Origin: Haloplanus salinus
GTDB lineage: Archaea > Halobacteriota > Halobacteria > Halobacteriales > Haloferacaceae
Length of the DNA stretch: 64,000 nt
Assembly (NCBI RefSeq): GCF_003336245.1
Contig: NZ_QPHM01000001.1
Coordinates: 930,001 to 994,000 of the forward strand
Direction: 5' to 3'
Position numbers and translations under genes: made by a program
Shown: positions 16,952-49,858 of the stretch, in pieces
Layout: the number at the start of each line of letters is the position of its first letter
How positions within the stretch are numbered: the first letter of the stretch is position 1
Notes under the pieces: generated by a model
The model's input: only the letters and a program-made list of their open reading frames with translations
What the model was told of the DNA's origin: nothing
Databases searched by the model: none

Positions 16952-17725
16952 ATGGCTCCGCAGATTTCGGCAGAAACCGAGGCGTTGCTCGTCGGCGGAT
17001 CAAGTGGCATCGGATTGGCGACGGCGGAGCGGTTGACTCGCCGTGGCGTCGATGTCCACCTCGTCGGTCGGACGGAAACGAAACTGGAGGACGCAGTCGA
17101 GAGTCTCCCGGGGGATGGACACGGGGACTATTCCGTCGTGGATCTGCACGAGGACGACGACGTTGCGGGGTTCGTCGACGCGGTCGAGGAGTCGTCGGCA
17201 TCGATCGACTATCTGGTGAACGCGGCGGGGTCGTTCGAACCGAAGCCGTTCTTGGATCATACGGAGTCTGACTACGAGAAGTATCATAAAATAAATAAGT
17301 CGTTCTTTTTCATCACCAAGGCCGTCGCTCGAAGAATGGTAGAGGACGGTGGGGGGGCAATCGTAAACGTCGGATCGATGTGGGCACAACAGGCGGTGAA
17401 GGATACGCCGTCCTCGGCCTACTCCATGGCCAAAGCTGGACTCCACACGCTCACACGACAGCTCGCTATCGAGTTGGGAGACGACGACGTCAGGGTCAAT
17501 GCGGTGTCTCCGGCCGTGGTGGAGACGCCGATCTACGGTGAGTTCATGGATCCGGAAGACATCCACGAGAATTTGCAGGCGTTCGACGAGATGCACCCGG
17601 TCGGGGATGTCGGCCAGCCGGAAGAAGTAGCCTCGGTGATCGACTTTCTCCTCTCGGAGGAGGCGTCCTGGGTAACCGGCGCGATCTGGGACGTCGACGG
17701 CGGCGTGATGGCGGGGCTGACGTAA
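16952..17725 (+). CDS. Short-chain dehydrogenase/reductase (classical SDR)
   Basis: The 257-residue enzyme has the Rossmann motif GGSSGIGLA (about 15-23), an NAAG motif near residue 90, and the catalytic S...YSMAK (Ser143 region, Tyr and Lys near 155-160), with a C-terminal [12 protein letters not shown] block. It should oxidise or reduce a carbonyl/hydroxyl with NAD(P)(H). Base use differs from its neighbours: several AT-rich stretches (for example around 17280-17320) and less extreme third-position GC. It abuts a TnpB element on the right. This suggests acquisition by transfer. Confidence 0.9.
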
Positions 17726-17780
17726 ACTACCTCACCCTACTCCCTCGGCGCATACGCGCCTCGGTCCTTGAGGGTGTCAT

Positions 17781-17826
17781 CAGAAGCGAAGCTTCTGACT
17801 GCTAACCAGAAATCTCCGATTTCTGG
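17781..17826 (+). repeat. Double-hairpin repeat, copy 1 (3' of tnpB)
   Basis: Two perfect hairpins in tandem: CAGAAGC-GAA-GCTTCTG (17781-17797), an 8-nt spacer, then CCAGAAATC-TCC-GATTTCTGG (17806-17826). The same architecture, with identical loops and spacer length, occurs inside tnpB at 18499-18554 on the opposite strand. It may be a right-end structure of the TnpB element or an independent REP-like unit. Confidence 0.75.
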
Positions 17827-17856
17827 TGATGGGGCTTTGATGTGGACTCCCGGCAA

Positions 17857-19163
17857 TCAGTCCCCAGCAATAGGCTGGTAACTCTCACCGTTCAACGTCC
17901 CACCATTTACACGTAGGTCTACTTCTACGTCTCCGCTCCCCGACTTAGGCGAGGACCGGAGTTTGTGCGTCCGCTTTCGGGCGTACCGTAGCCCGACGTT
18001 CTTTGCGCCGTTATAATCCGCGTTCACCTCGTACCCGCACTTCTGGCACTTGAAGCGTTCTCCGCGGCGGTTGTCCTCGTGCGTGAACCCACAGTCCGTC
18101 CGAGAACAGCGTTGGGACGTGTGGTTCGGCTCGACTTGCTCGACAGAGACACCGCGTTCAGGTGCCTTGTAGGAGGCGTACTCGAACAAGCGTCGGAATG
18201 CCCACACGTGGTGCCACTTCGCCTGCGGAAGTCGCTCACGAATGTCGGTCAAGTCCTCGAACACGATCACGTCGCAGTCGTGTTCGACGGCTTCCACGAC
18301 GATCTCGTTGGCGACGGTGTGGATGTACTGTTTTCGCCATGCTTCTTCGCGCTTCCCGAGCCGAAGCAGGGCGTTATGTGCGGCCTGCGTACCGCGCTGT
18401 TGCATCTCACCGCGTCGCTTCTCGAACTCGCGGCACCAGTGGTCGTAGTCGTCACCGTGCCAGAAGCGCCCGGTTGAAGAGACCGCAAGGCTGTTGACGT
18501 CCTCAGAAATCGGAGATTTCTGATGGGCTGCGCAAGAGCTTCGCTCTTGCGAACGCCGAGGTCGATACCGAGGACCGTTTGGTCGGGGTGCCCGATATCT
18601 GCCGGAACCTCTGCGTCGTCGCCGTCTGTCCGCCGAGTCGAGAGTTGGATGTAGAACTCGTCGTCCACCGCGTCGTATCGAACCGTACTCTCGCGGAACT
18701 CGTAGTCCTCGGAGAGAACGTATCGCTCGTAGGGCGTCGGACTGTCTGCCGGGAGAATGAACGACGGTTCGACCCGCCCCTCAACAGTTGCCAGCGACAC
18801 CTTGTTTCGGTAGAACGTCGCGCTTCGCGCGTCGTAGTCCATCGTTTCGGCGGTGAACGTCGGGCAAGAGACGCGCTGTCCCTTCTTCCACCGTTCGACA
18901 ACTCCCTTGATGGCTTCGACGGCGCGTTTGATGGCGGCTTGGACGAGTTGTGCCTGTAGGTCCGTCTCCTCTCGAAGTTCGGAGTAGAGCACGTCACGAA
19001 CCTGCCGCTTGTTGGTCTTGCACTCGGTGAACGACGTGTCCGACCAACAGTAGTCGGCGGTACGGTTCACGCAGTACAGGTATTGGTCGGCGGTTCGGTG
19101 GAGTGCGTCGCGTTGCTCGTCGGAAAGATTGAGTTTCACGACGGCGGTTCGACGCACGTCCAT
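17857..19163 (-). pseudogene. tnpB: tnpB (RNA-guided endonuclease family), split by a 56-bp insert
   Basis: The N-terminal part runs from ATG 19163 through the first RuvC motif VLGIDLGV. The C-terminal part, in another frame, starts at a MQQRGTQAAHN segment and contains IVFEDLTDIRERLP (catalytic Glu), a CxxC...CQKCG zinc ribbon and NADYNGAKN (last catalytic Asp), ending at 17857. Between them a 56-bp double-hairpin insert (18499-18554) shifts the frame by two; joining across it restores GVNSLAVSSTGRFW, the normal TnpB sequence. All catalytic residues are otherwise present, so the break looks recent. A TATAAG-like promoter lies upstream near 19190. Confidence 0.85.
18499..18554 (-). repeat. 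Double-hairpin repeat, copy 2, inserted in tnpB
   Basis: Read on the minus strand the insert gives CGCAAGAGC-GAA-GCTCTTGCG, an 8-nt spacer and CAGAAATC-TCC-GATTTCTG. The loops and the second stem match copy 1 exactly, while the first stem has a different sequence but is still perfectly paired (9 bp versus 7 bp). The insert is flanked by a GT that could be on either side. It carries no coding capacity. Confidence 0.8.
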
Positions 19164-27159: not shown

Positions 27160-28437
27160 ATGTGGCACCGACGGACGCTGTTGGCGGCGGCCGCGGCGGC
27201 GGCCGGGCTTGGCGGCTGCGCCGAGTCGTCGGCGCCGGCGACCCCCGAGGGACCGACGGGGGCGCCGTCACGGCCCCCAGTGACGGCGCGGTACGCGTTC
27301 ACACATCTCCGAGCCGACGGCAACCGCGTCGTCGACGGTCGCGGGACCATCGACGACGCGCAGCCGGTCGATATCGTCGTCGACGGCCGGCCGGCGTGGC
27401 TCCTCGCGTTCGGTGGCTCGGGCGGGGCGAGTTACTGGACGGTCGTGACGGCTGGTGGGCGGGCGACGACCCACCGTGTCGGCGACGGGGCGGAGACGGT
27501 CGCGTCCCACGGGCGCGTCCCGACGCCACCGCTGGCGTACGCGGCCGGCGGGGCGTTCGGCGTCGTCGACGCGCCCGCCGACTGCGCCGCGGAGACGCAC
27601 CCGGTGATGATCGATGGCGGCGTGTTGTACGTGGCCACGAACGGCGACGCCGTCGTTCGGCGCGACGGAACGTCGACTCGACTCGACGCCGACGCCCCGA
27701 GTGACGCCCGTCCCGTGCGGGTCGACGACGGGCGGTACGCGCTCTACGGCGGGCGGACGGAGCGCTACCGACACGGCGCGCTCGGCGACGGCGTCGAAGG
27801 GAGCCGGCTGCTCGTCGTCGACGCCGCGGGCGAGCGGGTCGAGGCGTCGGTGACGCTCGATGCGCCGGCGGTCTTCGAGGGGCTGTCGCCGCTCGTGGCC
27901 GACCTCGACGGCGACGGCGACGCCGAAATCGTGACGACCGTCGCCGATGCGACCGACGGCGCACGCATCAGGGCGTACGACGTCGACGGGGCCGAACTGG
28001 CGACCGGGCCGAGTTACGGCTCCGGCTGGCGCCACCAACTCTGTGTCGCGCCGTTCGCCCCGGACGGACGGCCGGAGCTAGCGGTCGTCAGGAAACCCCA
28101 CGTCGACCGGACGCTGGAGTTCTACCGGCTCGACGACGACGGGCTGACCGTGACGGCGACACACGGGAGGTACGCCAGTCACACGTACGGCTCGCGGAAC
28201 GTGGACGGCGGGCTGGCCGCGGATCTACACGGTGACGGGCGGTCGGAGCTGTTGCTGCCGACGGCCGATCGCCGGGCGCTGGCGGCCGTCCGGCGGGCGA
28301 GCGGGGGCGTCGAGCGGGCGTCGACGCTCCCGCTCGGTGGCAGCCTCGCGACGAACGTTGTTGGCGTCGCCCTCGACGACGGTCGGCTCGCGGTCGGTGC
28401 CGGGACGACCGCCGGGGTCCGGATCTGGCGAGGGTAG
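27160..28437 (+). CDS. Lipoprotein with FG-GAP/VCBS-like repeats
   Basis: The 425-residue protein starts at ATG 27160 (MWHRRTLLAAAAAAAGLGGCAE), with a signal sequence and a lipobox ending at Cys about 20. Inside are repeated beta-propeller-like units; one has a calcium-type DLDGDGDAEIV loop and another DLHGDGRSELLL. It is probably an extracellular surface protein. It precedes another lipoprotein and an ABC exporter, but spacing of 75 bp leaves co-transcription open. Confidence 0.8.
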   Translation: MWHRRTLLAAAAAAAGLGGCAESSAPATPEGPTGAPSRPPVTARYAFTHLRADGNRVVDGRGTIDDAQPVDIVVDGRPAWLLAFGGSGGASYWTVVTAGGRATTHRVGDGAETVASHGRVPTPPLAYAAGGAFGVVDAPADCAAETHPVMIDGGVLYVATNGDAVVRRDGTSTRLDADAPSDARPVRVDDGRYALYGGRTERYRHGALGDGVEGSRLLVVDAAGERVEASVTLDAPAVFEGLSPLVADLDGDGDAEIVTTVADATDGARIRAYDVDGAELATGPSYGSGWRHQLCVAPFAPDGRPELAVVRKPHVDRTLEFYRLDDDGLTVTATHGRYASHTYGSRNVDGGLAADLHGDGRSELLLPTADRRALAAVRRASGGVERASTLPLGGSLATNVVGVALDDGRLAVGAGTTAGVRIWRG

Positions 28438-48433: not shown

Positions 48434-48438
48434 ATCCT

Positions 48439-49858
48439 CCCCGGCGTAAACGCCGGGGCTTCCCGTACCGCAGGTGGGATATTTGACGGTCTACGACACA
48501 ACCTGTTCTCGCGGGGCGAAAACCCCACTGTCTGAGTCGAACAGGTGTACCGATGGCTGTGCCACACAGCCGTTACTCCTATCCTCGCCGTGAGGACTCG
48601 GAGTTATCTTTTGCCGCATGTTCTCCGCTCCGTTGCAGTCCGCGTTTCCGACCAACCCGCACGACGAGCAGACGTACAACCCACGGTGCTTGCGGTTCGA
48701 CTTCGTGTCGTCACCACACGCAGAGCAGGTCTGTGAGGTGCTCCACTCGTTCTCTTTCAGCACCTCAACGCCACGTATCTCGCCTTTGTATGCGAGGTAC
48801 TGGTAGATGCGGTCGAACGCCCACGAGTGCAACTTCTTGTTCCCAGTTGTGCCCCAGTCAGACTTTCGCACATCTTCGGGCCAACTCACCGCGAGTGTCC
48901 CCACGTTCCGTTCGACACACTCGGTGATAATGGCGTCCGTGAGCGTGTGGTAGAAGTGTGTCTCACGCTCTGTGAGTTTTCGACGTGCCCACATCGACTT
49001 CTCGGACGGGCCGTTCTCGCCTTCGGTGTCGTACTCAGCACGCTTGAAGTAGTGCTTGTCCTGTTTAACCGAGTTGCCGGGGTACAGGACGTATTCGTCG
49101 GGGAAGGCAACAGTGGCGACGTTCTTGATGCCAAGGTCGATTCCCGCTACTTCGTCACCTGCCGGGTCGTTTGTTTCGAGACTGACTTTGCAGACGAAGT
49201 GCAGTTCCCATTCGTCTCCGTTCCAGACGGCACGAACGTTCTGCACCGATTTGACTTTTGAAAGGTCAACGTCAGGTCGAGTCTGATACTCACAGAGCAG
49301 GAAGTCCGACCAATACTCCTTGAGGTTCGAGCCTTTGCTGAGTCGGACGCGGTTATTCTTTGGGTCGTGTTTGAATCCGTCTTCTTTGAACGTGACCGTA
49401 CTACGTGGTCGGTTGTCACCGTGTTTTCGGTAGCCGGGTGGATTCGCCTCATCAAATTTGTGTCGCAGGTCGAACCATGACTGGAAAGCGTCGGAAAGTT
49501 CTTCGATGACTTTCTGACTGGATTGCGCGTTCAAGTCTTTCCAGCACGCTTGGTTCTTCATATACGATTTCAGCACACCCTCGTCGGGGATTGCACCGAT
49601 TGCGTCCCAAACTCGGTCTGTTGTCCATCGTGCGACGTTCCAGATTTTGGAGGCTGAGTCTCCGAGCGAGTCGAGGCCATCGCAGACCTGCCGGTGGTTC
49701 TGGATGGAACCAACGTAAGTCCGAGTGGCCTTGATCGCCATACATAGACTATGTAGGTCAATCTACTTGATGATTCGGATTAGCGTGGAATATCCATCCA
49801 GCTATAGTCGGTAGACTGTGTGAGAAGTGTCGGATTCACGCCCGCCGTGAACGGCGGG
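48439..49858 (-). mobile_element. Intact IS1341-type TnpB element with terminal hairpins
   Basis: A right-end hairpin CCCCGGCG-TAAA-CGCCGGGG (48439-48458) and a left-end hairpin CCCGCCGT-GA-ACGGCGGG (49841-49858) flank an uninterrupted tnpB. There is no tnpA, so mobility would need a transposase in trans. The right end lies against codon 1-2 of a redoxin pseudogene. On the minus strand the sequence GGAGGATGTCA follows the right hairpin, as is common for these haloarchaeal elements. The stretch downstream of the tnpB stop is expected to encode its guide RNA. Confidence 0.75.
48491..49741 (-). CDS. tnpB: TnpB, RNA-guided DNA endonuclease, apparently intact
   Basis: The 416-residue protein has the RuvC catalytic triad: Asp202 in GIDLGIKN, Glu289 in SWPEDVRK and Asp368 in NADCNGAEN, plus a zinc ribbon CSAC...CSSCG (about 345-365). 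The N-terminal half has the WED/REC-like organisation of TnpB. TnpB proteins cut DNA at a site specified by a guide RNA from the element's right end and promote element retention. No stop or frameshift is present, so the gene may be active. Its base composition is well below that of the host genes. Confidence 0.93.
   Translation of the reverse strand: MAIKATRTYVGSIQNHRQVCDGLDSLGDSASKIWNVARWTTDRVWDAIGAIPDEGVLKSYMKNQACWKDLNAQSSQKVIEELSDAFQSWFDLRHKFDEANPPGYRKHGDNRPRSTVTFKEDGFKHDPKNNRVRLSKGSNLKEYWSDFLLCEYQTRPDVDLSKVKSVQNVRAVWNGDEWELHFVCKVSLETNDPAGDEVAGIDLGIKNVATVAFPDEYVLYPGNSVKQDKHYFKRAEYDTEGENGPSEKSMWARRKLTERETHFYHTLTDAIITECVERNVGTLAVSWPEDVRKSDWGTTGNKKLHSWAFDRIYQYLAYKGEIRGVEVLKENEWSTSQTCSACGDDTKSNRKHRGLYVCSSCGLVGNADCNGAENMRQKITPSPHGEDRSNGCVAQPSVHLFDSDSGVFAPREQVVS

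Follow-up and report, generated by a model that had tools for sequence, protein, structure and literature searches.

Several kinds of short, palindromic mobile unit have been described. The bacterial REP and REPIN sequences are reported as very short, hairpin-based, high in copy number and often paired, and Y1 HUH enzymes, the RAYTs, are considered their likely movers (PMC3733652, PMC6006769); they are sorted by GTAG and CGTC tags (PMC3733652). According to the available text of PMC6006769, only the IS200-type subclass of TnpA is reported in Archaea, and a RAYT is therefore not expected there. Haloquadratum walsbyi carries SMR-A elements, about 110 bp long and bounded by prominent terminal inverted repeats, which insert within the near-terminal palindromes of IS605-type elements or PATEs without target duplication, and whose mobilisation is called enigmatic (PMC3119063). 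The PATEs themselves have palindromes near their ends, which resemble IS605-type ends, and show no target duplication; one terminal-only PATE of 52 bp is suspected to be mobile, and such a form is described as arising by deletion between two near-terminal repeats, leaving one repeat copy (PMC3119063). Small, probably mobile double-hairpin elements that insert in tandem are described from mitochondria, and in fungi these are not removed from transcripts (PMC2800124). In the open-access literature, covered by title and start of abstract, no report of units like those described here across haloarchaea was found.

The stretch analysed, referred to as the window, is the 64 kb at C1:930001-994000 in the 3.55 Mb genome of a haloarchaeon (G000). 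Two double hairpins are associated with a tnpB gene of IS1341 type (17857-19163, minus strand), recognised from its open reading frames and from a TNB domain in its 3' part (PF07282, E 1.4e-20), which is found only in the downstream ORF. Unit 1 (17775-17829, minus strand) is 55 bp long and lies between CCCCA and CCC in the right end of this IS200/IS605-type element. Its sequence and fold give a first hairpin CCAGAAATC-GGA-GATTTCTGG (17806-17826, minus strand) and a second hairpin TCAGAAGC-TTC-GCTTCTGA, followed by the end TGACA (17780-17798, minus strand). Unit 2 (18500-18555, plus strand) is 56 bp long, has the opposite orientation and lies within the tnpB reading frame, with CG as flank and AACG as end. 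The exact bounds and lengths of both units were set by empty homologues; the earlier note had placed the two double hairpins at 17781-17826 and 18499-18554, within a few bases of these bounds.

Empty sites, exact to the base, were found for both units. The site of unit 1 is empty in the paralogues L015 and L024 of the window's genome, which read AAAGCCCCA^CCCTCAA at this point, and in other homologues. The site of unit 2 is without the insert in L024, L015 and others, and is empty to the base. Unit 2 shifts the tnpB frame, and when it is left out the reading of the empty tnpB homologues is obtained, as expected of the clean insertion that the earlier note had proposed. The counter-case given in that note was a first copy that is an ordinary TnpB right end, with no further copies anywhere. 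Both parts of this are contradicted, as unit 1 is also an insertion and copies are present across haloarchaea. The right end that unit 1 splits has the form CCCCA...CCCTC...AGGGTGAGG...GTTTAC (17722-17834, minus strand), assigned by comparison with empty right ends and with a presumed outer limit. The RNA fold of 17724-17860 has a z of -4.57.

Double hairpins with stems of at least 7, loops of 3-5 and a gap of 2-12 number three in the window, these being units 1 and 2 and a GC-rich one at 27188-27235, against 0, 0, 0, 1, 0, 0, 0 and 1 in eight Markov controls. Each of the two units folds as DNA into two clean hairpins, with z of -5.4 and -5.1. A search of Rfam over units 1 and 2 gave no family, and two matches elsewhere in the window. 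A second tnpB of the window adjoins a match to Rfam sot0042, a sense overlapping transcript RNA, at 48438-48609 on the minus strand. Taken with the empty sites, the sequence comparisons indicate that units 1 and 2 are real, are mobile, and belong to an abundant haloarchaeal superfamily of non-autonomous units of about 50-60 bp.

The two units share the first hairpin only. Spacer, second hairpin, ends and flanking dinucleotide all differ, which marks them as members of two subfamilies rather than copies of one repeat. The plan of subfamily A is CA/TCA-hairpin-TTAGCAG-hairpin-CGACA/ (slashes mark the borders of a unit) and that of subfamily B is CG/TCC-hairpin-TGGGCTG-hairpin-AACG/. Unit 1 scores 69.8 bits against the A model R1 (E 1.3e-20; the match, 17775-17831, takes in the CA flank) and unit 2 only 19.3 bits, whereas unit 2 matches the set CG/TCC-YCAGAA..TTCTGR-TGGGCTG-second hairpin-AACG/. 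The difference between the first stems of the window copies, read earlier as compensated change within one element, therefore lies between subfamilies and does not by itself represent paired change. A third kind of unit, AAG/TCAAGCAAAGC...CTCAG/TACCGC, has AG as both flank and end and was found in the tnpA locus L031.

Stems that stay paired while their sequence changes are nevertheless found, not between the two window copies but within subfamily A. From 118 candidate places of a 19-base core, 13 failed the hairpin filter and 105 units were kept; 47 distinct units with hairpins of 21+21 nt were aligned. Changes on both sides occur in 9 of 18 pairs, with 118 such cells, against 36.6 cells in shuffles, none of 500 of which reached the observed value, and 3 to 23 with the partner slid; the shuffle leaves relatedness among the rows in place. 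The rows were preselected for at least 80% pairing, so that the pairing figure of 98.5% is biased, the changes on both sides less so. Base three of the spacer and the final base of the unit also vary together in A units: both are A in 93, only the spacer base is A in 2, only the final base in 4 and neither in 6 (p 3e-6, from related rows). Such a pattern might be expected if a guide read the cleavage site. Judged by eye, the pairing rule between guide and cleavage site in IS608 does not appear to fit the A ends. The loops of A units often occur in reverse-complement pairs (GGA and TCC, GAA and TTC), as if the hairpin tips inverted.

Units are inserted directly 3' of a dinucleotide, CA for A and CG for B, that is the same as their own last two bases. 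CA precedes the unit and closes it in 92 of the 105 parsed A units. Among the 13 exceptions, flank and end still match in four (CG with CG in 3, TA with TA in 1), three others, preceded by GG, agree once the end is set one base further on, and the rest do not match (CG before and CA at the end in 2; TA and CA, CA and CG, AA and CA, CT and CC in 1 each). For the 60 single A units found neither in arrays nor in tnpB right ends, C occupies position -2 in 55 and A occupies position -1 in 51, with no base preferred at position -3. The CG flank and AACG end were present in 16 of 16 parsed B units, a list made up of those matches from 38 loci and the window that pass the hairpin filter, with failing matches uncounted. 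A longer target duplication is not required, although the matching stretch reaches 9 bp at one site in a carbonic anhydrase gene. In arrays the units are stacked end to end, with the junction GACA/TCACC.

The unit family is abundant and almost confined to Halobacteriales. The 19-base core, with up to 2 mismatches, was found in 93 of 392 genomes of this order, and the reversed control gave five matches; model R1 (E <= 0.001) matched in 331 of the 392 genomes and in 87 of 95 genera. In a phylum sample of 148 genomes, matches were present in 22 of 24 genomes of the order and in 5 of the 124 others, of which three are from one genus, with modest E-values. An exact two-part pattern searched in 84,980 species gave 67 stretches, all 67 haloarchaeal by title. 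The further copies expected on the earlier note's suggestion of a repeat family were thus found with core, model and pattern alike. The window's genome has at least 16 distinct unit places among the matches listed, and 400 kb of its contig 3 contain 7 double hairpins, a Markov control giving 0; G381 has 22 matches to the 19-mer. Halolamina salifodinae and Halobacteriales archaeon YIM A00010 are among the unit-rich strains. Counts of R1 matches per genome are lower bounds, with up to 14 candidates scored for each genome of the order and up to 37 for each in the phylum sample, and palindromes match on both strands. A contig of Haloplanus ruber R35 carries the unit, as does one plasmid record, of Halobacterium sp. 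DL1, under a feature annotated as transposase IS605. No stretches were found in viral_contigs and no match in phages.

Simple string rules assign 21 of the 105 A units to tnpB right ends and 24 to arrays, leaving 60 in other places. Those in tnpB right ends lie nearly always between CCCCA and CCC, which is one arm of the right-end palindrome. Whether TnpB right ends of this type carry the unit, as the earlier note had wondered, has a divided answer: among 33 tnpB rows, 7 have a unit at the site of unit 1, 19 have the empty site and 7 are unclear. In the tnpA elements L074 and L084, B units split the left-end palindrome, for which L069 and others show the empty state, and L062 and L086 carry units in the same left-end region, with L063 and L087 as their empty counterparts. 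The comparison shows a preference of the units for near-terminal palindromes of IS200/IS605 elements. Within another tnpB right end, that of L226 (G416:C155), a double hairpin of another type, GAAAGGC..GCCTTTC GAGGCCTC GATAGAGC..GCTCTATC, stands directly before CCCCACCC, so that right ends appear to be struck by several kinds of unit.

Coding sequences are also broken. The unit of the third kind in L031 (G000:C3, at approximately 1453-1503 in the sense direction) interrupts the tnpA that is the only Y1_Tnp match of the window's genome, and L075 is an uninterrupted relative at the same residues. In the tnpB genes L011 and L016 a unit lies upstream of the TNB domain. A carbonic anhydrase gene (L004; PF00484 on the G370 protein) and a cation efflux gene (L005; PF01545 on the G293 protein) are each broken by a unit. 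Units inside genes break them, and annotation reads the break as a frameshift.

Three genomes carry the carbonic anhydrase unit, namely G000, G199 of the same genus and G425, and its site is empty in nine other genomes, four from the genus (G370, G293, G367 and G422) and G110, G415, G398, G428 and G260. On either side of the unit stands the 9-mer GACGACATC, of which the empty G370 gene has a single copy. In the gene tree G000 pairs with G370 (98/97) and G199 and G425 are placed elsewhere, which requires 3 changes at this site, at least 2 of them forced (on the starred branches); a single change was found in 0% of 200 bootstrap trees. At tnpB site 1 there are 5 changes, at least 3 forced, and at tnpB site 2 there are 3 changes, at least 2 forced, the same B unit being present at the same base in G000, G416 and G396 with differing loops. 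The copies at this second site (L216, L226 and L230) differ mainly in their loops. In these trees, units recur at the same base in non-sister lineages. This points either to repeat insertion at one base or to traceless loss, and either amounts to precise, site-directed mobility.

Beyond the unit, the carbonic anhydrase gene is still conserved in G000 and G199. In the G425 copy (L174), which carries the unit, the upstream frame is apparently shifted and there are extra amino-acid changes, so that it looks to be decaying. Retention of function after insertion, by bypass or splicing, was considered and set aside, as the G425 copy looks decayed and recent insertion explains G000.

The preferred reading, at about even confidence, is that the units form one superfamily and are moved in trans, as single-stranded hairpins, by an HUH enzyme, either Y1 or a relative. 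Each unit has two hairpins 4-8 nt apart and short, conserved, unpaired ends; the two hairpins would serve a hairpin-reading HUH nuclease as left and right ends in miniature, the candidate being a Y1 transposase or relative supplied from elsewhere. Replication or repair forks would be the places where the units, as single-stranded DNA, are excised and inserted. Arrays and the reuse of a site would be explained by a right end that matches the target, and each insertion would break a host gene or split a transposon end. The stems would covary because the hairpin, and not its inner sequence, is recognised. Single-stranded transposition of this type is favoured by the short hairpins, by a target dinucleotide that equals the end with no further duplication, and by the avoidance of a double-stranded circle of 55 bp.

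In the 94 genomes of the window's family, unit 19-mer and Y1_Tnp match are both present in 33, the unit only in 7, Y1 only in 35 and neither in 19 (Fisher p 0.066). Y1 as a required companion was rejected, since the association is weak and seven of the 40 unit-bearing genomes of the family have no Y1 match; G314 has none, despite at least 14 R1 matches with both strands counted. The TnpA-type enzyme suggested by the earlier note agrees with the units in target dinucleotide, orientation and size, but the link to Y1 is weak and no tnpA flanked by units was found. An autonomous parent element was likewise discarded: neither the 30 tnpA loci nor 1.58 Mb of unit-biased DNA contained a transposase gene flanked by units, and neither set showed unit ends at the termini of a tnpA or tnpB element. 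Where units occur in the tnpA loci, they are insertions within a left end or close to it, or lie at a greater distance. Left and right half-units separated from each other on the same strand were found as 2 pairs in the 1.58 Mb, at 466 and 184 bp, too close for a transposase gene.

Two other routes of insertion have to be considered. The identity of two bases at the borders would also be expected from a 2-bp target duplication or from the core of a serine recombinase, and a site-specific recombinase (serine, IS607-like, or tyrosine) could integrate a small circle with the border repeats of 2 bp, up to 9 bp, as shared core. The two copies of GACGACATC around the carbonic anhydrase unit, single in the empty gene, would agree with this, as would the match of flank and end across subfamilies and the reuse of one base. 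A double-stranded circle of 55 bp can, however, hardly be bent, most targets share just two bases with the unit, and the covarying double hairpin would be left without a role, which makes a recombinase improbable. It is similarly unlikely that no dedicated enzyme is involved and that units arise by template switching or repair at stalled forks, with short-homology priming at palindromes. Palindromes and unit ends are indeed preferred, no enzyme has been found, and loops vary between copies, often as reverse complements, but slippage is not expected to leave precise, full-length units with constant bounds at one dinucleotide in unrelated genes.

The recurrence could also reflect precise loss or very short conversion tracts. 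That it is due to precise excision of old insertions or to gene conversion between genomes is possible but doubtful; this concerns the history of the sites and is compatible with movement by an HUH enzyme. A single gain followed by two losses could also give three changes on a tree, and haloarchaea recombine often. Over the 144 bp downstream of the carbonic anhydrase site, however, G000 has 5 differences from the empty G370 and 17 from the occupied G199, so that any converted tract would be very short, and all nine other genomes are empty there. Least probable is an RNA structure, belonging to an omega RNA or to a 3'-end element, that spread with tnpB and is kept for an RNA function. The units in tnpB right ends, the stable RNA fold of that region and the A-rich flanks around many units speak for it; most units lie elsewhere, some inside coding genes that they break, and the right-end site itself is often empty. 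The likeness to integron attC sites was weighed and rejected, as the core does not fit.

The units can be set beside the described systems. Like the SMR-A elements of PMC3119063 they are short, non-coding, mobile and haloarchaeal, insert without target duplication and lie in near-terminal palindromes of IS605-type elements, but at 50-60 bp they are double hairpins with covarying stems and a two-base match of flank and end. The separation from SMR-A (HqIRS42, 43 and 55) is one of description and leaves room for kinship in sequence. As in PATEs and the MITEs of IS200/IS605, insertion is 3' of a fixed short target (CA or CG) with no further duplication, whereas the ends of the units, unlike those of PATEs as described in PMC3119063, were not found ending tnpA or tnpB elements. 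The earlier suggestion of a small REP-like mobile unit is borne out by short palindromes in high copy and by sites empty to the base. Compared with bacterial REP and REPIN as their sources describe them, the units have two hairpins in direct order and also occur inside genes; the GTAG and CGTC tags are absent from their ends, which are TCA, TTA or TCC and CGACA or AACG. The mitochondrial elements share small size, probable mobility and tandem insertion, but belong to other genomes and have other sequences, and neither a dinucleotide rule nor the targeting of insertion sequences forms part of the description in the available text of PMC2800124.

Units split transposon ends and break tnpA and tnpB, including the sole Y1 match of the window's genome, which would make them a brake on IS200/IS605 elements or a parasite of them. 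It is a tentative proposal, rather less probable than not, that haloarchaea hold a REP-like world without RAYT, in which several subfamilies with a co-adapted interhairpin guide and terminal dinucleotide, and hence a target dinucleotide of their own, prefer IS200/IS605 ends, brake or parasitise these elements, and depend on a mover still to be found. With the family, Archaea would gain a counterpart of the bacterial REPs and the mitochondrial double-hairpin elements in hundreds of genomes, and the empty and occupied orthologues would serve as natural experiments on how a gene-less pair of hairpins of 55 bp moves. PATE-like and omega RNA regions are reported to be transcribed in haloarchaea (PMC10544981, PMC12558985), and a unit in a tnpB right end adds length to the region that gives rise to omega RNAs. 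Many A units (L151, L155, L158, L160 and others) have AAAAGCT...CA before them and AAAAG after them, a recurring setting that could represent a terminator or another element.
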